In this document: positions 1 to 12,520 of the stretch, piece by piece
How positions within the stretch are numbered: position 1 is the first letter of the stretch
How the letters are laid out: each line of letters opens with the position of its first letter
Notes under the pieces: model-generated
Seen by the model: the letters and a program-made list of their open reading frames with translations, nothing else
Database searches by the model: none
What the model was told of the DNA's origin: nothing
Program-made: the position numbers and the translations under genes
Assembly (NCBI GenBank): GCA_022264855.1
Contig: JABYQU010000103.1
Location: forward strand, 1-12,520
Direction of reading: 5' to 3'
Source: Lenzites betulinus
Lineage: Eukaryota > Basidiomycota > Agaricomycetes > Polyporales > Polyporaceae
Length of the DNA: 12,520 bases

Positions 1-3000
1 ACACGGTGAAGGCGCACTGGAAGGCGGAGGTGGAGAAGTTGCGTGAGCAGGGGGTGCACGGGGATACGCGGGAGGTGGACGCTCTGCGGGGTGCGGGGGT
101 GAAGTGGGACCTGCTGAACGCGTTGTGGGCGGAGGGGCCGTACGAGCGGTTCCCTCTGCCTACGCAGACGTTCATCAAGGACATGATCGCCGCGTTTGCG
201 GTGGTCACTGACGCGGTACGGTTTGTGAGTACTATTTCATGCTTCTTTGGATGGGATGGGTCGGTGAGGGTGTCTCTCCATCGGCACTGCCGATGGTGGG
301 ACACCCCGGCGACTGCATATCATAGTGTCTCTCCATCGGCACTGCCGATGGTGGGACACGCTGGTGGCTCCATATCATAGTGTCCCACCAACGGCACTGC
401 CGTTGGCGGGACACCCCACTGGTGTTGATGATGGTGTCTCTCCAACGGCACTGCCGTTGGTGGGACACTCCGACCAGTGTATAGAAGGTGTCTCTCCATC
501 GGCAGTGCCGTTGGTGGGACACCCCCACAGCTGCATAAACATGCCATGTATGCTGTGAGTATCACGTGCTAACACATTGTTGTTTGTAGATGGTGCGCAT
601 TGTGGACCCGCTCTGCGATGCGCGCCGCTTCATCACGCATCTCGGCATCCTCGACCACTCGACTGCCTCCTCCTCATGCTCAAGACAAGTCCATCTGCAG
701 CGCGTCGAGGATGTCGCTGTACGAGGTAAGTCGTGGCTGGGCAGTGTGGAACACGGACTAACCATGACGACACGGTGCAGCTCCCCCAGTTCATCTTCTT
801 CGTGATGGCGGAGCTGCAGGACGTGCAGGGGCATCTTGCGCGGGCGTCGTTCAACTGGCGGGACCGGAATGTGTTCGGGTTCTCGACCGCGAAGTGGGCG
901 ACGATCAACGAGAAGCGGCGCAACCGCGAGGACTGGCTGAGCGAGGTCGACCCGTTCCTGGACGACTGGGACCAGCCGGCGGTCCGCGAGACGTCGCAGG
1001 ACATGGACATCGAGAAGCTGACCGTGATGTTGACGCAGCACCACCGCTACGTCCGGGAGCGCGACGAGCCGATGGAGGACACGACGCCCAAGGGCAAGGG
1101 CAAGGGCAAGGCGAAGGCCACGGAGGCGCTGGAGGCGGTCAAGCTGGAGCCGGCGATGGCGAAGACCATGAAGTACCTGCTGTTGGTGATGCGGAACAGC
1201 GACGACTTCTTCAACGTCGGCCGGAGCACGGGGTACCGCAACAACCGCGCGCTGGCGATGCAGGTGCGCGCGATGTGGGACGTCATCCGCGACGTCCACG
1301 GGCCCATCTACGGCACGGACGCGGGCGAGGAGCTGCACAAGCAGATCCTGCAGTTCTTCACGACATACAGCTCGCTCTCGCCCACGCAGGTGTTCCCGAA
1401 CGAGGACCTCGTCGCGCTCAAGCGGCGCACGATGTTCACCAACTGGGATCAAATGCACTTCGCCGAGTTCAAGCGCAACGGCGAGTGGCACGGGTACGAC
1501 CTCTTCCGCGACATCGGCTCGAACGACACCTTCTTCGCGCAGCAAAGCCGCATCGTCAACTACACCAAGGACATCGAGGCCGTCGTGTCCAAGGTGATGT
1601 CCGTCTCCGTCGCTCAGCACGACCCCTTCGGCGCGGCCATCTCCGGCAACACGGACAAGGAGGGGCTCATGCTGGCCACCCCGGTCGCAGAGGCTCTCGA
1701 TGTCCTCACCCAGGTACGCCCCCATCGCGCCGCGCTCTCTCATTCCCTCTTCGCGCACACGCTGACACTTGTCCTTGTCCCTCTCTTCTGCAGGCCCTCG
1801 TCCAGAACGCGTCGCGCCAGGAAGCGCGTCTGCTCGCCGCGAGCCCCCTCCCCGTCGTCCTCCGCCACAACCACCTCCAGAAGGACTTCACGCGGCCCTT
1901 CAAGGAGTCCATCGACGACCCCGACCACTACACGCACCTCACCGACTTCCGCGACAACGACGAGGTCAGGTACCAGAAGTATCTCAGCCTCGTCGTCGAC
2001 AAGTTCGGGGAGGAGGGGTACAAGAACCCCCTCCAGTACGCGTACCCGCAGGACATCGCCGAGGACCTCGCTAGGGTTCTCGAGGAGGACGACGACGACG
2101 ACACCTCCTCCCACCGACGGACGGCGACCCCCCCGCCCGAGCAACGGCCTCCGCACGACGATGAGGAGGACGAGGAGCCCGCTCCGTCGGCCCCCCGCCG
2201 CGGCATGCTCATGGATCTCTCCCAGCGCCCTCGCGCACCCCCGCCCGACACCGAGGACGTCGAGATGGAGCCTCCCTCGCAGCCCGCACCCTCGCAGCCC
2301 GCGCCCTCGCAGCCCGCCCTCGCAGCCCGCCCTCCCAGCCCCCGTACCCCCCGGCCCAGCGCCCCCCTGCCCGCTCGCCCTCCCCTCAACCTCCCAAATG
2401 GCGGGGCAGACGACGATTCCGCTCTCGTCGCAGGAGCTTCGCGATATCGAGGCATGGGCCCCGCAGAACGGCAGCGGCATCGGTGGTAAGTACACATCAT
2501 TTTGGCACAGGACAGCTGTCTCTCCGCGGCACTGCCGTTCGAGAGACACCCAAGAAATGGCCCGCAGGCCTGTCTCTCCATCGGCAGCGCCGTTGGCGAG
2601 ACACCCAAGAAATGGCCCGCAGGCCTGTCTCTCCATCGGCACTGCCGTTCGAGAGACAGGTCGATCGGGGCCCTCAGGCGTGTCTCTCTATCGGCACTGC
2701 CGTTAGCGGACACTCTCGTTTCCTACATCGTTACTCATTTCCTTCGCAGACACTCAGGCAATCGAGGACCCCATGAACATCGACGCCAACCCAGAGCTCC
2801 CCCCGACCACCCGCGTCCCAGAGACCATCGTCGAGGAGGACACCGCCCCCGACATGCAGGACATCCGTCCCTCCGTTGGCCCGTCCGCTACCCGCAGGAG
2901 CAAGCTGCCGGCACCCCCAAGCCTCCGCCAGCCCCTCGCAAACGTCCCCGCGCCAACACCGCCAGTACGTCCCTCTCCCTTCCCCTCCGCTCCCCCACCC

Positions 3001-3275
3001 ACTCACCCACCCACTCACTCACCCACTCACTCACAGACTCCACAGCCTCCGCATCGCAGCGTTCGCCCCCCCACAAGCGCAACACGCCCGCTCCCCCCGC
3101 TCGCCACCAGCAGCAGCCCGTCGCCAGCTCCTCCCGCTCGACCCGCCAGCGCTCCGCAGCCGCAGCCGCGAGGCCCGACAAGGACGTCGACAAGGACAAC
3201 GACCCCGCTCCCCGCACCCGCACCCCGCCCCTCCCGGTATCCCTCCCCCCGCACCCACGGACTACGATTAGGTAG
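1..3275 (+). CDS. Gene 1: unrecognised multi-exon fungal protein, 5' end outside window, frame broken
   Basis: I do not recognise this protein. Exons I support: 1-224, 590-718 or 590-725, 781-1713, 1794-2485, 2750-2964 and 3037 to a stop at 3271 or 3275. The introns have GT-AG ends; the first has a CTAAC branch-like site near 569. There is no ATG at the left edge, so the gene starts upstream. The long exon 781-1713 is a clean globular-looking frame with a Lys/Gly run (KGKGKGKAK) near 1090. Exon 1794-2485 carries an Asp run (EEDDDDD), then an acidic and proline-rich low-complexity tail with QPAPS repeats. The last exons are basic (PRKRPRAN) and end in Gln/Ser/Ala-rich sequence, suggesting a nuclear protein (inference). 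Frame breaks: about 2 nt missing near 2310-2322 and 1 nt near 2912. The 590-725 exon joins exon 781 in phase only if donor 719 is used or a +1 shift is assumed. Two introns hold palindrome arrays. Confidence 0.72.
270..522. repeat. Palindrome array A: five 35-bp units in intron 225-589 of gene 1
   Basis: Units lie at 270-304, 325-359, 380-414, 434-468 and 488-522, so starts are 55, 55, 54 and 54 bp apart. Each unit has a left arm GTGTCTCTCC (GTGTCCCACC in unit 3), a core palindrome, and a right arm GG(T/C)GGGACAC. Units 1 and 2 have the core CATCGGCACTGCCGATG. Units 3 and 4 have CAACGGCACTGCCGTTG, also a perfect palindrome. Unit 5 is a hybrid, with an ATC left half and a GTT right half. The four spacers are 20, 20, 19 and 19 bp; the first two end in the same CATATCATA. 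The array fills most of a 365-nt intron. Confidence 0.95.
2280..2335 (+). repeat. Pro/Ala/Ser-coding 15-bp tandem repeat with a 2-nt short unit
   Basis: Two exact-length units (2280-2294 and 2295-2309) encode QPAPS. The next unit, 2310-2322, is only 13 nt because its C run is two bases shorter. Upstream of this point the sensible frame reads an acidic tail (DVEMEPPSQ). Downstream the sensible frame, one that ends in phase with the next exon (SQELRDIEAW), is shifted. This is the clearest single frame break in gene 1 and could be replication slippage or a sequencing error. Confidence 0.8.
2517..2713. repeat. Palindrome array B: four units in intron 2486-2749 of gene 1
   Basis: Units lie at about 2517-2548, 2571-2604, 2626-2658 and 2681-2713, with starts 54, 55 and 55 bp apart. 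They share the left arm TGTCTCTCC with arrays A and C. The right arms are mostly (G)AGAGACA, and the cores are degenerate: GCGGCA or ATCGGCA on the left against TGCCGTT on the right. The spacers after units 1 and 2 are nearly identical (CCCAAGAAATGGCCCGCAGG), so two full 54-bp units look tandemly duplicated; the third spacer differs. The last unit is the most eroded (TCTCTATC, and GCGGACAC with one base missing). The intron is 264 nt, with donor GTAAGT at 2486 and acceptor CGCAG at 2749. Its phase joins the frame ending NGSGIG to the one starting DTQAIEDP. Confidence 0.93.
2995..3034 (+). repeat. CACT/CACC microsatellite forming the 3' part of an intron
   Basis: Degenerate tetranucleotide repeats (CCCACTCA-like) run to the acceptor CACAG at 3036. 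Intron 2965-3036 has donor GTACGT and is 72 nt long. The repeat supplies the pyrimidine- and A-containing tract before the acceptor. Confidence 0.75.
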
Positions 3276-3582
3276 CCGCACTTAGCATCCCCCCCGCGCA
3301 TCGCGCCCCGCGCATCGCACTTCGCGTACAGTAGACTCACCGCATAGTCCCTCTACTCGTACTGTTACCCCCCGCCCCCCACATGTACTGCTTCTAGCCA
3401 GCCTAGAGTACATCGTTTACTTACCCTTCTCCTCGTCGGCTCCGGGCGCGCGGCCTCGGCCCCTCACTTACGTTCTCCTTGCCTTCCCATATCCTTGCAT
3501 ACCACCTCCCCCTTTAACAATATATCGTCAATCATCATCTGGCCACATTGCCTCCCACAGCGAGTGAATGTCAAACGTATTG

Positions 3583-3615
3583 ATTAGGGTCCTAATTCCT
3601 AATTGCATTCCTAAT
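3583..3615. repeat. CCTAAT motif cluster with an inverted pair
   Basis: ATTAGG at 3583-3588 and CCTAAT at 3591-3596 form a palindrome with a GT centre. Two more CCTAAT copies follow at 3598-3603 and 3610-3615. Four copies in 33 bp suggest a protein-binding cluster or a relic telomere-like repeat. It lies about 310 bp after the gene 1 stop; function is unknown. Confidence 0.6.
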
Positions 3616-4015
3616 CACACTCGGTCGCCTGCGCCCTCCGTCAGTCCCTCCGCCCCATCAACAAGCTGAGTGCATGCATCAACGCAGACTAACCACCACC
3701 CCCGCATATCGTGCTCCACCCTCCCTGCCTCTTTACTAACATCGTAAGCCATAGCTATCCCTAACCCTGCGCCCCCTCCTGTGCTTCCCCCTGCTCCGTC
3801 CCCACCCTCTCACCTATACCCACTCCCTCTCGCCTTTCTATGTTTATATCATATCATTCCTCATTTATCCCACTCTCCTTCCTTTCATCGTTCCTTCTTA
3901 TCAAATATAATTTTCATCTCTCCCATCTCCGATGACCTTGTCCATACCTCTCCTCCCCGCACCTTATCCCTCCGCTCTGCACTTTGTATCCCCCTCCACT
4001 CTGGAGTTTCTTCCG

Positions 4016-4090
4016 CCTCCGGAGTTTGTGTTCCCCTCCCCTCCGGACTTCCCCTCCGGACTTCCGCTCCGGACTTCTCCGGACTTTGTA
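4016..4090. repeat. TCCGGACTT short direct repeats upstream of gene 2
   Basis: CTCCGGACTT recurs at about 4041, 4055 and 4068, and TCCGGACTT again near 4078. Related CTCCGGAGTTTGT precedes them near 4018. The longer motif ACTTTGTATCCC flanks the block on both sides (about 3981 and 4083). The core TCCGGA is self-complementary. This could be an expanded repeat or a cluster of regulator sites. Confidence 0.6.
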
Positions 4091-4459
4091 TCCCTCCACA
4101 TTCTGCATCCACTAAAACACTTCCCTCTATTACCTCCCTCTCACACCCTTTCTTCTCCGCTCTCTCCGTACGCATTATTCGTTTTCTCACCCCACCTCCG
4201 CCCACTATCCCCGCCCTCTTCCAACTCTAATACAGTCCACTTATTTCATCATCGTCCTCCCAATCCATCCACCCATCAAATCTCAGTAGCCAATCTCATC
4301 TCCATCCGCAATCTCAGATCGTAATCTCAATGTCTCATTTCAAATCCCAACACCTGATCGTCGTCACCACACAGCCTCCGGCCTTCTCCTCGCTTCCCAT
4401 TTCAAATTCCCTTAAAAGTTTATTCCCTATCTGTCAGCCTCCGCACTTCCGCACTTCGC

Positions 4460-4577
4460 CCACCTCTCTCCCCGGCACTTCTCTGCTTCTCTCCCCCACA
4501 CTTCTCTGCTTCTCTGCTTCTCTCCCTTGCTCCTGCGCTCCTTCTCTCCCTCCTTCAACCCCCCACACTCTCCTTCC
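4460..4577 (+). promoter_or_regulatory. Pyrimidine-rich promoter/leader of gene 2
   Basis: A nearly pure C/T tract runs up to the proposed ATG at 4578. It includes direct repeats of CACTTCTCTGCTTCTC (about 4477-4527). CT-rich tracts just upstream of start codons are a well-known feature of filamentous-fungal promoters. No convincing TATA box is seen close to the start. Confidence 0.5.
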
Positions 4578-7500
4578 ATGTCTGTGTCTTCCATCGACGA
4601 CGATCTCGACCTCCAAGATCTCCTCGACAACGCCCAGTCGCCCACCATCCTGGGTAAGTCTTTCCCCATTCCATCCCTCGCCCCTCCCCCCCTCTCGTTG
4701 CTTCCCCTTCCGATGGCACTCATGCCTTCCATAGCCACCCTCAGGGCTCCCATGCATTCTCAAATGACGACGATCCCATTCCTGCCACAAACGCCCCCTC
4801 CTTCGCCCTAGACCTCGCTGCCATCCCAGACACCCTCGACGCCGACGACGCTGGCAACCAAGACATCCTCGACCTCGCCATCCTCCAGGCAGCCCAGCCC
4901 AACCAACACTATATCGACACCTACCACGACGCGCCGGCCTACAATCTCCACCTCACCCACCTTCGACATCTCCATGACCGCGGTGACAAGCGCGCCGCCG
5001 CCGCCCTTTTGACCCGCAAGAATACCCTCATCCTCGACCCCGAGTTCGTTTACCCCCACCTGGACAACAATATCGCCTGGCAGGTGTATCAGGTACGCCC
5101 CTCCATTGCAGCTCCCCTCACTTGCCCCCTCAACTCCAGCCATCTCCCCTCGCTCACAGCACCGACTCGACTATTACTGTCGAGTCCCCAACGACATCGG
5201 CTTCAACGCCGTCCTTCCCAACATGCAAGACCCGACGTCCAACATCCAGTAGGCTGGACATTCAAGATGACGTTCAAGAAGCGTTACATCTCCTACCCCG
5301 GCGACATCAAGGTCCTCGCCTTCAACCCTCGAGGCGCGATGCTGTACATCGGTCAGTCCCACGACAACGAGTCTGTCTGGTGGACCCTCTTCCCCCGCCA
5401 AGCACTCGAGCCGTACCCATCAGTCGAGCTCATGACTGCTGACACCGGTCCGTCGACCATGGATCCCCTCCTCGCCCGCATCAACATCGCATGTCTGCTG
5501 TACATGATGCACAGATCAGGCTACACGAACTTCTACCTCCGCACCCGCTACCCCGACATCTCCTCCAATGCTGCGTTTACAGCGCATGTCGGCGATCTCC
5601 TGTAAGTCCCCCCTCTGTTTGTGCATGTCATTTCATTCAAACCACCGCCTGCTGCAGAGACATCGACCCCATGGAGTTCTCAACAGAGCAGCTTGGTGCG
5701 TTGCAGGAGACCATCGTGCGGCTGTACCCGTCCTGGTGGGCGAAGGCTCCGGCCTCTTACAAGCACCCGCTGCTTGAAGGCAGGGTCCCTGCGGCTGTCG
5801 TCCTCAAATACGGCCAGGACCGGCATGTGTGCAACCCCCCCACAGCGGCGAACGACGCAGAGCTCTGGCATCGCAGCTGCGATTTCTCCAAGCTCGCCCG
5901 CGTCGCCTTTGCGCTGGCGACCCACTACCGGTGAGCACGCCCCCATGGACGCTTCGCCTGCTCTGTCTGGTGTGCGCCGACTGACTGCTATCGCTGTAGG
6001 GTGTCCCCTGTCCAGTCCTGGAACCCCATCGACCCGCAGACCATCGTGAACGCCCACCCTGTGATCTACACCACCGCAGATCCAGAGACACGCGAGGTAG
6101 TGGAGGACCTTGCAACTACCCACTCCACGACGGAGACGAACGCGAAATACAAGTGTTCGGCCCCAGCGGCCGCCGCATACCCCGCCACAGCGTCACGTAC
6201 TTCGACCCATACGAGCCCTGCGCTGTGCTCCAGAACCTCGGCGTGGTCTCGCAGCTGTTCGCCAGCCAGCCCACCCACAACAATATCTGGACATACGACG
6301 AGGACGGCGCCATTGTGCGAGACCGGGGCCCCGCCAACCAGGACGAAGGCGAGGTCGACGCTATGCTGGATGGGATCGACCCGCCATCCGTGCACCTCTA
6401 TCCGATGGGCTTCACCCGTCATGGCCAGTGGCAGGCGAACGGCGTCATCGACCCCTTGCGCCGCCACATCTCCGCCATCTCGCGCTCTCTCAAGCAGCAC
6501 GAGGGAGGGAGCGCCGCGGTCGAGGGCATCAAGAGTCAGTGCTACAATAATATAGCACACTATACGCGCCACTCCGCCCGCCACCACATCGCGCAGCGCG
6601 GCGTGCTCACTGGGACGACTGGAGGTGCCTGGGCCAAGACCAACAAGGCGCGTGCGACGGCGACGGCCCTCTTCGCGTCGTGTTCTCTCAGCAACCCTCA
6701 CACCGATCTGTGTGGGCAGCTCGAGCGCGCCGACCAGACGTTCCTTCGATTCGAAAACGTCTACACTGTGCACCTGCAGCGTCTCGATCCTGACAACTGC
6801 ACTGGGCGACAGCTGTACCTCAAGGTGATGATGCCTTTGTCCTCCGCCTGCGCACACCCGACCGTCCTCGACGCGATCAAGGCGACGAGCAAGGTCTTCA
6901 GGCCGGGCGTTTTCCCCGATCTCATGCTCTGGACGACGTATCCCCTGCGTGTGCTCCTCGAACAGTTCTGGAGCAAGGTGTCGCCCTCGCTGACCCCGGC
7001 GGTGACCACCACGCCCAATCCCGTCGACCTGGAGATGATCGCGATCCTCGAGCGGCTTATCAACTTTGCGCACACTGGCGCGATGAAGGTGCTCGCCACC
7101 GGCGTCATGGATAAGCTGTGGCCCAGCCGCGCGGTGGTCGACCACGGATTCCCGTGCTTCTCCCCTGCTCTGTTTCTCGGAGGCGACACCGGGTTGCTTC
7201 CTTCAGTCAGCCTGAACGACTGGCCACGGCATCTGATAACGGGCTATCCACTCGTGGCTCCAAGCGAGCACTCGAGATCACCTACGGCAGCGATGTCTTC
7301 ACTGTAAGTAAACACCTCCAATCGCGCACGCCCTTCGACATGCACTCCTCCGTCTCCAGGTGGGTGTGTCCCGCCATCGGCACTGCCGATGGAGAGACAG
7401 CAGGAATGACCGTGGTAGGGTGTCTCTCCATCGGCAGTGCCGATGGCGGGACACATCCACCTGTACCATTGTTACTGTCTCTCCATCGGCATTGCCGATG

Positions 7501-9387
7501 GCGGGACACCCTACCACGGTCATTCATACTGTCTCTCCATCGGCACTGCCGATGGAGAGACACCTCTGTCAGCACCGTTCATACTGTCTCTCCATCGGCA
7601 ATGCCGTTGGAGAGACACCCTCACCTGGCGTCATGTCTGTCCGCTTACACACCTGCACAGACATATCACACCTTGTTCCACATTCATTCAACAGTGTCGC
7701 GTGCACTCAACACAGGAAGAGCTCCCGAGGACATCGTGGCCTATCGCGTCAAGATCATGGCCACCATCGTAGCCGATACATTCATCGCGGACGTCATGAC
7801 TGCTGTCAAGGTCGCAGTACTTGAGGAGACACAAGAGGCCTTTGACAATCCCACACACATCGATCGCGACTTTGCACTCGCACGCAGAGCATCGCTCAAG
7901 AAGTGGCTCAAGTACGAAGAGCCCCTCAACTACGGCCCCAACAGGATCCATTTCGCAGACCTCGTCCGCGCGGTCTCCGCTCAGCAAGAGGATATGGTGC
8001 ACGGACTGCCCCCCTCCTCCACGCGCAGCTCTTCCCTCGAGGCCTTCGTAGACAAGATATACAAATGGGCGATATCCAGCACAGTCGGCGCCCGCGCCCC
8101 GTTGTACAAGCAGGGCTCCACAGGCGTCGTCCTGCGCTCCATCATCGAAGAAGCCAAGCGCGCCCTCAGGGCACACTCAGAGACAGAACGCGAGTCAGAG
8201 CTCAAGAAGGCAATGGTCAGAGCCTTCACCGCCAAGCAGGTCCACTACATGCCAGACGCTCTCCCAAACCCCGCGGGCCAGGGCTCCCCGTCCCATCAGC
8301 CGTCCATCCACGCATGGACAACCCTCGGGCCGCCCCACAGGCTCGCTCTCTCACCGCGGCCAACGCTCGCACACACTCCGAGCGCATCGCATTCGAGCTC
8401 CACGCCACTGCCCAGTCTCTGGAAGACAGCGACGTCCGCGGCGACTGGACCTTCCAGGAGATCTCCCTGCAGCACATCCACACCATCCTCAACCGTCGTG
8501 TCACCCCCGTCGACTGGTCGTATGGCACCGCCCTCCGCTCCGCCGTCGGCATCACCCGCTCAATCTACGCATGGGCCTCCCAGCGTTTCTCCGAAGACAT
8601 GCAGGATTGGACTTGCTCCCTCGCTCTCTCCCTCGCTATCATCCTCACCAAGCTCCTCCCCAACATCTTCTATCCCCATCCCCCAAAGAGTAACATCCTC
8701 AGCGCCATCGCCTCCGCCCCGCTCTCCAAGCCAGCCGCTTGCATCGCCGCCGTCCGCCGCGTCCCTTTGGATCCACCTTCCTCATCAGTCAAGGGCCTCA
8801 CCAACAAGCCCCTCTACGCCACTCAGGCTGCCATCTGGCTCCTCGCCTGGATAGACGAGAACTCTCCCCTCAGGACGGCCATCAAGGCAGGCAACGCCTC
8901 CACGCTCAAGGAGTTCAATTCCAAGCACTGTAAGTCCTCGCCTCGTCCCCCGCCCTCGTTAACACACACTCATCGCCCCCCTCCCCGCCTCTGTGCAGCC
9001 CACAAGGGCCTCAACCATATCAACCTCATCCGCTTGGGCATAGCTTATGGCAACGCAGGAAGACTCTTCAATTCCGCTCGCGTCAATGAAGACTACCGCG
9101 TTCGCTCCACCTCCGATCTCAAGAAGTGGGCATCTTCAGTCAGGTCTCACCTCACGTCCCTCCCAGAGGGGCCCTTCAACCTCGTGTCTGCCATCTTCGG
9201 TCTCGACGCAGCCCTCAAACTCAGGGACAAGGGCGAGTTTCCTGGCATGAATCCCGCCACCGTCGCCTCTCTTCAGACAGCCTCCGCCAAGCAACGCTCT
9301 ATCGCATCTTCCTCCAAGAGGCCTCTCGACACCGACCTCGCTGACTCCGACACCCTCCCTCCTCGCCAGCGCCGTCGCAATCATTAG
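4578..9387 (+). CDS. Gene 2: large unrecognised fungal protein, seven exons, about 1,345 codons, frame interrupted
   Basis: I do not recognise the family. Exons: 4578-4653, 4812-5092, 5160-5601, 5658-5930, 6000-7303, 7661-8929 and 8999-9387 (TAG). All six introns are GT-AG and phase-matched. The N-terminus is acidic (SSIDDDLDLQDLLD). The middle is Trp/Tyr/His-rich and globular (e.g. ESVWWTLFPRQ, CYNNIAHYTRHSARHH). The C-terminus is basic and nuclear-signal-like (SSKRPLDTD, then RQRRRNH). I see no signal peptide or clear membrane segment. The frame holds only if one base is missing near 5249 (G), 6110 (T), 7228 (G) and 8286 (C). With those four the exon total is divisible by three. No splice choice I tried repairs these sites. 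Intron 7304-7660 contains palindrome array C. The gene follows gene 1 on the same strand and shares its array-bearing introns; it converges on gene 3. It could be a decayed copy of a multicopy subtelomeric family (inference). Confidence 0.75.
7367..7617. repeat. Palindrome array C: five units in intron 7304-7660 of gene 2
   Basis: Units lie at 7367-7399, 7420-7454, 7476-7508, 7530-7562 and 7585-7617, about 53-55 bp apart. Cores are ATCGGCA, then C, G or T, then TGCCGAT in units 1-4 (unit 3 has ATTGCCGAT at the centre). Unit 5 pairs ATCGGCA with TGCCGTT. Arms are TGTCTCTCC or TGTCCCGCC on the left and GGAGAGACA or GGCGGGACA on the right; unit 4 is perfectly palindromic over 33 bp. The spacer after unit 1 (ATGACCGTGGTAGGG) and the spacer after unit 3 (CCCTACCACGGTCAT) are exact reverse complements. 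The intron is 357 nt, phase 0, joining exons ending GSDVFT and starting TYHTLF. Confidence 0.95.
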
Positions 9388-9711: not shown

Positions 9712-10708
9712 CTACTCTGCCTCAGTGCTACCTTCTGGCGTCCACTCAGATGCTGAATCCTCCGAGTCTTCCATCTCCATCTCCGCCTCCTCCTCAGCCT
9801 CGATGTCCCCAGGCGCATCCTCCACCCCACGCAGTTCGTCTATGAGCGCGGCAAAGTGCTCGCCCAGGATCTCCTCCCTCTGCTCTCGCAGTTCGGCCAT
9901 CTCCGACCGCATCTCCTTCATCTCCCTCCGCAGGGTTTGCACCTCCACCAGCAGCGCATACAGCAGCTCTGTGTTGCAGAGCCCTCCCTTTTGCGGCCAC
10001 AGCGACGCCCCACGAGACATCTCCTGTCCGAAGTTTCGCTTCTTGGGCCTCGGCGTCCCGGGCGTCCCGGGCGTCCCTTCACGCGTCCCCGGCACGTGAC
10101 CCTCGTGGCGCGCGTCCTGGACGCCTGCCCCGGAGCCGGAGGGAACAGGCGTCCCCGCGGCGCTCATGCCGCCGCCTTCCGCCCCGGGCCGCACTCCCAC
10201 CTTCCGTCGCTTCTTCTCCGGTGGGCCGCCCTGGAACGCCGTGCATTGCGTCTTCTGGCGCCGGCACTCTGTGCAGGAACGCCTCCGGCCACCTTCAAAG
10301 TAGCAGGTGAGGCCTTGCCTCTCACACCGACTGCACGGCTGCCTAAAACCCGTGTCAGCTCTGAACTTACACCTCCGGGGCCCGGTGTCGGAACTCCGAA
10401 CTCCGAACTCCGAATCCGCCATCGGAGCTCGGTCCCTGCACTTACTGGGGCACATACACCTCCCCCTCGTGATCCTCCTCCGCTGCCCTCTTCTTGCTCG
10501 CCTTTCCCTTCTCACTGCCAACCTCCATCCTCACTCCCTTGTCCTCCGACTTACGCTTCCCCTCCGCCTTCGTCTCCGCCCTCTTCCGATCCTCCTCCGC
10601 CTCCTTCGCCGCCGCCGCCCTCTCCTGCCGCTTCTTCTCCATTCGCGCCCGGAGCTCGTCCAGTTGCGCAGCCAGGCGCTCTTCTTCCTTGTCTGAGGCT
10701 GTCGGCAT
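9712..10708 (-). CDS. Gene 3: putative Zn2Cys6-type nuclear regulator with permuted half-sites
   Basis: Two exons, 10708-10446 and 10342-9712, joined across intron 10445-10343. The donor is GTAAGT, the acceptor TTTTAG, a CTGAC branch-like site is present, and the phase matches. The product is 297 residues in one unbroken frame. Residues 1-87 are Lys/Glu/Arg-rich and probably helical or coiled. Cysteines 91, 94, 101, 111, 114 and 121 give the spacing C-x2-C-x6-C-x9-C-x2-C-x6-C, within the fungal Zn2Cys6 range. The basic half (CTECRRQKTQC) comes second, whereas classical members have it first. A nuclear-signal-like PPEKKRRKV follows (128-136). Residues about 213-258 form a heptad-like Leu/Met coiled coil (likely dimerisation), and the tail is strongly acidic (activation-like). 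A DNA-binding role is inferred from the cysteine spacing only; the target is unknown. ATG 10708 is the first Met after a non-coding-like repeat region and lies downstream of a TATA-like box. Confidence 0.78.
10391..10418. repeat. AACTCCG 7-bp repeat inside the gene 3 intron
   Basis: GAACTCCG-type heptamers are repeated three times, followed by a shortened AATCCG copy, wholly within intron 10343-10445. The period and the CTCCG core match the larger minisatellite upstream of the same gene. Confidence 0.75.
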
Positions 10709-10891: not shown

Positions 10892-11068
10892 GTGTCTCCG
10901 ATCTCCGGTCTCCGGCATCCGATCTCCGATCTCCGGCTCCGATCTCCGGTGTCTGGTCTCCGGTCTCCGATCTCCGATCTCCGGTCTCCGATCTCCGGTG
11001 TCTGGTCTCCGGTGTCTGGTCTCCGGTGTCTGGTCTCCGGTGTCTGGTCTCCGGTCTCCGGTCTCCGC
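10892..11068. repeat. TCTCCG-type 7-bp minisatellite upstream of gene 3
   Basis: About 25 copies of a 7-bp unit, mostly GTCTCCG, ATCTCCG and GTGTCTG variants, occupy some 177 bp. A higher-order 14-bp unit (GGTGTCTGGTCTCC) repeats about four times in 10997-11050. It begins about 180 bp upstream of the gene 3 start, so it could affect that promoter. The open frames across it are repetitive Arg/Asp/Thr-rich readings and I do not treat them as genes. Confidence 0.9.
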
Positions 11069-11140
11069 TCTATGAGGTGATGCAAGCGCTGGAGCTCTTG
11101 GATCATCTCTTTCTCCTTCACACATCACATCTTAGACAAA

Positions 11141-12044: not shown

Positions 12045-12334
12045 TGTCACGACCCCAACCACCGTGACGGATGTGACCACCCCAACCACCGTGACGGACG
12101 TGACCACCCCAACCACCGTGACGGACGTGACCACCCTAACTATCGTTACCACTGTCACAATCCTAACCAATGTCACAAACGCAACGACCCCAACCACCGT
12201 CACAAACGTGACGACCCCAACCACCGTCACAAACGTGAAGACCCCAACCACCGTCACGGACGTGAAGACCCCAACCACCGTCACGGACGTGACAACCCCA
12301 ACTACCGTTATCAGTGCCACAACCCTAACCACTG
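12045..12334. repeat. 27-bp satellite next to the telomere, 11 units
   Basis: CCC(C/T)AAC-type cores recur at 12053, 12080, 12107, 12134, 12161, 12188, 12215, 12242, 12269, 12296 and 12323, exactly 27 bp apart with no indel (unit 5 reads TCCTAACC). The unit contains CCCCAACCACCGT followed by CACGGACGTGA or CACAAACGTGA variants. Units 4, 5 and 11 carry CCTAAC, identical to part of the C-rich telomere strand. Because 27 is a multiple of three and stops are absent, several frames on both strands are open; I treat these as a by-product of the repeat. Confidence 0.93.
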
Positions 12335-12344
12335 TGAAACACGT

Positions 12345-12520
12345 GGGTTAGGGGTTAGGGTTAGGGTTAGGGTTAGGGTTAGGGTTAGGGTTAGGGTTAG
12401 GGTTAGGGTTAGGGTTAGGGTTAGGGTTAGGGTTAGGGTTAGGGTTAGGGTTAGGGTTAGGGTTAGGGTTAGGGTTAGGGTTAGGGTTAGGGTTAGGGTT
12501 AGGGTTAGTTAGGGTTAGGG
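12345..12520 (+). repeat. Telomere, TTAGGG repeats
   Basis: About 176 bp of TTAGGG run to the end of the window, G-rich strand 5' to 3' toward the end, as expected for a right chromosome terminus. The innermost unit is TTAGGGG (12348-12354) and a short TTAG unit occurs at 12505-12508. All the other units are canonical. TTAGGG is the common telomere repeat in filamentous fungi and vertebrates. Confidence 0.98.

Follow-up and report, generated by a model that had tools for sequence, protein, structure and literature searches.

Palindrome arrays in a chromosome-end element of Lenzites betulinus suggest family-specific protein docking sites rather than CRISPR-like arrays

Why should the introns of a fungal gene contain evenly spaced palindromes laid out like the repeats and spacers of a CRISPR (clustered regularly interspaced short palindromic repeat) array? 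The question is raised by a 12,520-nucleotide stretch of DNA from the wood-rotting polypore Lenzites betulinus (contig JABYQU010000103.1, referred to here as the window), which is the entire contig C6 of an analysed genome of 37.4 Mb in 108 contigs. A sequence-only reading of the window had described CRISPR-like arrays confined to the introns of two neighbouring genes. The arrays were found to belong to a repeated chromosome-end element of more than 16 kb, termed family F1, and their properties suggest family-specific sites at which a protein docks, not a CRISPR-like system. The window carries 29.5 copies of the telomere repeat GGGTTA at positions 12,345-12,520, and is therefore the end of a chromosome.

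The 14 palindromes first noticed in the window are 33-bp units with a pitch of 54-55 bp and spacers of 21-22 bp. Array A (271..521) contains five palindromes at a pitch of 54-55 bp, array B (2516..2713) contains four at a pitch of 55 bp, and array C (7367..7617) contains five; none of the three is assigned to a strand. Two units of array B have a 1-bp deletion relative to the copy on contig C10. In array C, spacer 3 is an inverted copy of spacer 1 (0.90), and the array as a whole is a large inverted repeat. Each array sits in a separate intron on the + strand: intron A of gene 2 (225..589; 365 nt, GTGAGT...TAG), intron B of gene 2 (2486..2749; 264 nt, GTAAGT...CAG), and intron C of gene 3 (7304..7660; 357 nt, GTAAGT...CAG). 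The existence and lengths of these introns, as originally proposed, were confirmed by their splice ends and by precisely one open frame across each joint. They are also the longest three of the gene model, which is a composite of a copy on contig C57 and the distal part of the window, supplemented by reading the first 5 kb. For introns A and C, database proteins give further support: the T. gibbosa homologue P0001 reads through the position of intron A as '...DAFRFMLRIVDP', and intron C is also skipped, at the same joint, in P0002, a protein of the copy on contig C10 (10,399 bp). Intron B is backed by its open frame and by a counterpart on contig C3 (see below).

Searching the genome with the pattern TGTCYCNCCNNCGGCANTGCCGNNGGNGRGACA at up to 3 mismatches gave 141 sites, and none for the reversed control, a number well beyond chance. 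The 138 sites that were read, in 13 contigs, all lie inside F1 copies and fall in six fixed array positions (A-F) of that one element; the remaining three most likely make up the proximal array of the C57:40965 copy. According to the gene models, whose exon limits come from a simple predictor, positions A, B, and C are intronic and D, E, and F intergenic (the latter could in principle be untranslated introns). Array F precedes gene 1 as well as a TATA-like box identified by eye. Array E lies where genes 1 and X converge, between their ends, and array D where genes X and 2 diverge, between their starts. Modelled coding sequence makes up 60% of the first 16.65 kb and is overlapped by none of 24 units, a count in which the first exons of gene 1 are not part of the coding set. 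The search pattern favours some fixed letters; relaxing it to 7 mismatches in nine contigs added only the two units of the window with 1-bp deletions. The exact F1-type site had no match in IMG/VR viral contigs or GTDB species genomes, a result showing just that the site is not common in prokaryotes or viruses.

These results changed the picture drawn by the sequence-only reading. Confinement to introns holds within the window but fails for the whole element, because the gene models place three of the six array positions between genes. The two neighbouring host genes do have real introns, but they are parts of the repeated chromosome-end element. A mobile hairpin satellite, as it had been stated, does not agree with read sites that all occupy fixed positions of one element, nor do introner-like elements, which would be expected in many unrelated host genes. 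The genome-wide search that had been proposed returned sites that are not restricted to introns, but are also not scattered and keep a fixed pitch (54, 55, or 63 bp).

No variation is seen at 16 of the 33 palindrome positions across all 138 units. Arrays D-F served as a held-out test of the 18 positions that never vary among the 53 units of arrays A-C: the 85 units of D-F depart at these positions in 28 of 1,530 cells, versus 337 of 1,275 at the others. Moreover, the two arms vary largely independently of each other. Among the 138 units, arm symmetry is below the independent expectation at positions 5 (0.30 vs 0.52), 7 (0.31 vs 0.45), and 11 (0.49 vs 0.56), and the same shortfall is seen among the 66 distinct units. 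The T-G and C-A pairs at position 5 are equally frequent (49 and 47), and neither a G-U preference nor a general matched change between the arms was found. Pairing alone would permit compensated drift, so the keeping of the same letters by arms that are otherwise free points to a half-site read by a protein, present twice in inverted orientation. Mostly independent arms, no preference for G-U, and invariant letters at nearly half of the positions together favour sequence-specific protein binding over RNA pairing.

How such a protein might act is a step beyond the sequence data. Each palindrome would consist of two inverted half-sites TGTCYCNCCAWCGGCA bound by a dimeric protein, and that protein is probably encoded by the element itself. 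We give roughly even credence to the proposal that the palindromes are family-specific recognition arrays for such a protein, working like the targets of VANC, a protein of the Arabidopsis VANDAL elements. As the arrays occupy the non-coding gaps of F1, the bound protein could mark the whole element every ~2-5 kb. Its most likely purpose would be to protect expression of the element from host silencing, the role of VANC in VANDAL, with partition or replication less likely.

Further evidence was obtained from two other palindrome families. Contig C3 (20,306 bp) contains diverged relatives of genes 2 and 3, with P0003 from this contig being 64% identical to gene 3 over 77% of its length. Its palindrome is TGTCTCGCTGGCGGANNTCCGCCAGCGAGACA, with the inverted pair TGTCTCGCTGGCGGA, and the inner 30 bp at up to 3 mismatches occur at 33 places genome-wide (control 0). 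On C3, the introns matching A, B, and C carry 3-, 5-, and 7-unit arrays, respectively, at a pitch of 51-53, with one of 61. These introns were placed by a gene model for A (243 nt), by flank translations for B, and by the joint in P0003 for C, which was used in place of a predicted 687-nt intron of C3 gene 3 that was set aside for its misplaced splice site. A weaker group of three units follows gene 3 at a pitch of 73. The C3 and F1 palindromes have TGTCTC tips in common. A third family has the palindrome CCGCGGYYGCGCANNTGCGCRRCCGCGG, and a slightly wider pattern at up to 2 mismatches was found at 140 places (control 0). Its pitch is mostly 55, with gaps of 56, 57, 62, 88, 94, and above as well. 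One six-unit array of this family lies in a predicted intron of a gene 3 relative, which is a different intron from the F1 host and matches the place of a short F1 intron free of arrays. Among the C3 and third-family units read, arm symmetry is near the independent expectation at most positions; in the C3 family (18 units), positions 1 and 7 depart weakly from it. A different palindrome at the same positions is what would arise if the protein and the sites of each family changed together, and the switch from family to family fits such co-change.

A serious rival to protein docking is the passive spread of a palindromic repeat. Under this explanation, which we regard as unlikely though by some way the best of the alternatives, the palindromes would be a functionless minisatellite, spread by unequal exchange and gene conversion and tolerated in introns and gaps. 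Unit number does vary between copies (5 or 6 in array A, 3 or 4 in B, 5 or 6 in C), and spacers have been duplicated both directly and inverted. In the C10 copy the spacers of array C run s4' s3' s2 s3 s4 (prime denoting inversion), which, with the differing unit numbers, shows that units were gained and flipped. Concerted evolution could homogenise the units and give each family its own palindrome. When seven copies were compared over their first 4.7 kb (columns with at least 5 letters), variable columns made up 17 of 330 (5.2%) in palindromes, close to the 4.3% in other element DNA; 28 of 185 spacer columns varied, and 2.7-3.8% of coding columns. The corresponding counts were 6/99 for palindromes and 7/43 for spacers in array F (11 copies), and 1/66 and 0/22 in array D (5 copies). 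A minisatellite of this kind does not, however, readily explain why the same letters are fixed and the same letters variable in six arrays with different spacers, as the held-out test found. Nor does it readily explain the pitch. Every one of the 103 distances between neighbouring units is 54, 55, or 63 bp, with 63 bp confined to array E, yet spacers inside arrays C and F have an identity of 0.39-0.50, near the random value of 0.33. Identity is intermediate inside arrays A and B (0.45-0.64) and high inside array E (0.67-0.71). The pitch is likewise kept in the C3 arrays despite diverged spacers, and two related families carry different palindromes in homologous introns. Helical phasing of the pitch was considered, and no claim is made for it.

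The second alternative is that the palindromes act as RNA hairpins in introns, either compacting long introns for splicing or giving rise to double-stranded RNA for small RNAs. Compared with shuffled sequence, introns A, B, and C form far more stable folds (z = -11.1, -7.9, and -18.1; 60 shuffles each), and the inverted-repeat structure of array C is in line with this reading. Hairpins that bring splice sites together, one of the ideas of the sequence-only reading, are accordingly possible in physical terms, but intergenic arrays and unmatched arm changes are left unexplained. The hairpin reading as a whole meets the same difficulties: half of the array positions are intergenic by the gene models, the arms show no general matched change and no G-U preference, and pairing alone does not require 16 positions to stay constant in 138 units. 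An Rfam search of the window hairpins gave matches to microRNA precursors only, all of them below threshold. We consider an RNA role improbable, and distinctly more so than passive spread.

The position of F1 in the genome bears on a third alternative. F1 copies are ~92-99.6% identical in DNA over aligned stretches and have a fixed proximal end, (A)ATTAAATGTCTCTTTTTGTAACCC, found at 15 places (up to 3 mismatches). In the 14 proximal joints compared, upstream sequences are unlike one another, sharing no more than 17 of 40 positions, and the F1 start base shifts by a few nucleotides. All 14 of the 15 proximal ends that could be placed are oriented toward the nearest contig end. A run of telomere repeats was not found at the 14 joints; GGGTTAGGG occurs once, ~30 bp inside. 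The distal end is cut straight into telomere repeats on C56, C75, and C10, and on C13 it is followed by ~190 bp of other sequence and then telomere. At C106:8874 it adjoins another F1 copy, and at C17:7264, C57:20129, C57:37509, C2, and C29 it adjoins a repeat in the same orientation with a fixed proximal end of its own. Distal breakpoints are scattered, at element ~291, 565, 1254, 1404, 2.9 kb, 3.5 kb, 4.6 kb, 4.8 kb, and 8 kb. This pattern is what repeated attachment to chromosome ends, followed by erosion, would leave. Contrary to a uniform picture of end attachment, a third-family gene in C57 (28,029-32,562) runs the opposite way. Of 168 RVT_1 candidates genome-wide, 150 places were scored and none lies in the examined element copies, a search in which a diverged reverse transcriptase (RT) could be missed. 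At the Rfam gathering score, no family was found in loci L013 (one proximal end), L036, and L014.

Given an element at chromosome ends with truncated distal ends, and inverted spacers that record flipped array segments, the palindromes might serve as a recombination or replication device, forming cruciforms or recombinase sites that help chromosome ends to gain or lose copies. Scattered breakpoints speak against this, although one of them (C29, ~291) does coincide with a palindrome of array F. So does the proximal joint speak against it, having TGTCTC but no palindrome. Such a device is very unlikely in our judgement. A CRISPR array is taken as excluded for practical purposes: the repeat-spacer layout is there, but the element is nuclear and eukaryotic, its spacers are duplicated and inverted, and Pfam detected no Cas family in the scanned gene models, in keeping with the original description of a CRISPR-like layout without CRISPR function.

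Several other features of the chromosome ends were recorded. A further repeat with the fixed proximal end ATCCATATAACCCGG occurs at C2:24994, C13:767894, C17:16628, C17:16532, C29:22733, and C56:305193, and directly abuts truncated F1 copies at C2, C17, and C29. At C73:4371-4456 (L022), a 58-bp F1 fragment is followed by about six bases like the start of the ATCCATATAACCCGG repeat and by a new F1 proximal end, apparently successive end attachments within 85 bp. On C106 (L016), a ~2.55-kb stretch with ~880-bp inverted arms (84%) at 1731-4283 splits gene 2 of one copy, and when aligned to the window its flanks overlap by ~10 bp, the result expected from a target-site duplication. The segments C57:15207-22621 and C57:32589-40000 (L013-L015), 7.4 kb each, are 99.9% identical, reflecting either a recent duplication or an assembly artefact. 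In the window, a 27-bp tandem repeat of 9.6 copies lies just inside the telomere (12049-12308) and a GTCTCCG-type 7-bp tandem repeat of 25.6 copies at 10894-11071; the C10 copy changes to telomere repeats near the point equivalent to window 11082.

If the palindromes are docking sites for a protein of the element, its genes should be considered as sources of the binder. Genes 1, 2, and 3 point toward the telomere. Gene 1 has PHD-like cysteines (Pfam E 0.005, below cut-off), and gene X, on the opposite strand, is related to it (E 2e-11, single comparison). In the first C57 copy, gene 1 (C57:13359-14133, L013) is apparently frameshifted relative to the second C57 copy. The window contains the 3' part of gene 2 (3..3275, + strand), which starts outside it, encodes ~1,420 aa in the composite model, and has P0001 as its homologue, and gene 3 (4578..9387, + strand; ~1,264 aa in the composite model; homologues P0002-P0005). 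No Pfam family was found above cut-off in the models of genes 1, X, 2, and 3 or in P0001-P0005. Gene 2 was considered as a ParB protein on account of its GGGHR stretch, and this was rejected as unsupported by Pfam, NCBIfam, PHROGs, and PDB. An open reading frame on the - strand, gene 4 (9715..10527), has the two-cluster cysteine pattern CX2CX6CX9CX2CX6C and is a candidate DNA-binding protein. It is present in the element copies on C6 and C10, and may be part of the element. Relatives of gene 4 occur only at C10, C18, and C27. The C18 relative (L039, C18:28443-32120) adjoins integrase- and chromodomain-like sequence of a long terminal repeat (LTR) element, and the C27 relative is beside LTR-element sequence as judged by a neighbouring RT place. 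As these other relatives adjoin LTR-element sequence, the case for gene 4 as the palindrome binder is weakened.

Other observations also count against recognition by an element-encoded protein. The Zn_clus match of gene 4 (Pfam E 0.1) is below cut-off, searches of Pfam, NCBIfam, PHROG, and PDB backed no DNA-binding fold for gene 2 or 3, and structure predictions for gene 3 (P0003 and 3 homologues) and gene 2 (P0001 and one exon row) were unusable, with a mean pLDDT (predicted local distance difference test) of 33 and 36, respectively. Between copies, palindrome columns do not vary clearly less than those of ordinary element DNA, and both units and copies are related by descent and so are not independent. 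Arm symmetry is slightly high at position 9 of F1 (0.90 vs 0.88 expected; 0.85 vs 0.80 among distinct units) and at position 4 of the third family (0.85 vs 0.69). Spacer identity is high in array E and in the third family (0.67-0.79), and simple inheritance may account for the pitch there; gene conversion alone could spread one palindrome through a family. CpG depletion, considered as a mark of methylation, gave no useful difference either way; the proximal 568 bp of the C57 copy have a lower value (0.58).

Taken with the docking sites proposed above, F1 and its relatives could represent a new kind of eukaryotic mobile element, which would attach to chromosome ends by a fixed end, encode large proteins of no known family, and label itself from end to end with family-specific palindrome arrays in introns and between genes, protein and palindrome switching together so that families do not act on each other. 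This broader proposal is tentative, and we hold it to be doubtful rather than probable. In searches of the open-licence PubMed Central (PMC) literature, no description of these elements or arrays was found. If the docking-site proposal is true, a fungal chromosome-end element has independently reached a VANDAL-like solution, with private, family-divergent docking sites in its own non-coding DNA. The families would then supply natural pairs of protein and palindrome in which to study how DNA-binding specificity changes, and a way into the attachment of elements to fungal chromosome ends next to telomere repeats. There would also be reason for caution with CRISPR-like arrays in eukaryotic introns, as they may be protein-binding sites.

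Known systems share some of these features. Palindrome arrays of set spacing serve as protein docking sites in ParB/parS and iteron partition sites. The F1 arrays are alike in layout, and the GGGHR stretch of gene 2 recalls ParB, but no profile supports ParB. At chromosome ends, the HeT-A, TART, and TAHRE elements of Drosophila form chains of end-attached elements that are eroded on the telomere side. F1 resembles them in its chained, eroded copies, but differs in that its host has TTAGGG telomere repeats and in that gag or RT was not recognised. Terminons and telomere-associated Penelope-like elements, in the portions of the source drawn on here (PMC6431247), are similarly long, located at chromosome ends, fixed at the proximal end, truncated on the telomere side, and arranged in head-to-tail rows. 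By comparison with that account, no RT was found in the examined F1 copies, no telomere-repeat run at the 14 joints, and F1 genes 1, 2, and 3 point to the telomere. The hammerhead ribozyme and the reverse-complement telomere-repeat run of terminons were also not found (Rfam on L013, L036, and L014; 14 joints). F1 was not filed under terminons because no RT was found and its proximal joint is without a telomere-repeat run. In Agaricus bisporus, the subtelomeric Penelope-like elements and RecQ helicases described in part of PMC7473861 are likewise repeated genes at basidiomycete chromosome ends, but the F1 gene models scanned yielded neither a RecQ nor an RT family, and palindromes do not feature in that account.

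The closest working analogue found is VANC of the Arabidopsis VANDAL elements. As described in the sections of two papers used here, this element-encoded protein binds motif repeats in introns, intergenic regions, and terminal non-coding regions, and the motifs differ between related elements (Hosaka 2017, PMC5735166; Sasaki 2023, PMC10398659). F1 was not filed under VANDAL because no shared protein family was found: Pfam detected neither a Mutator-like transposase nor a VANC-related family in genes 1, X, 2, and 3 or P0001-P0005, a search in which VANC sequences themselves were not compared. As far as these sections go, the VANC binder is known and tested, whereas that of F1 is putative, and F1 differs further in its 33-bp palindrome, its fixed pitch, and its location at fungal chromosome ends. 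In both systems, nevertheless, short motif repeats lie in introns, intergenic DNA, and upstream non-coding DNA of a mobile element, are gained and lost between copies, and differ in motif between related elements.

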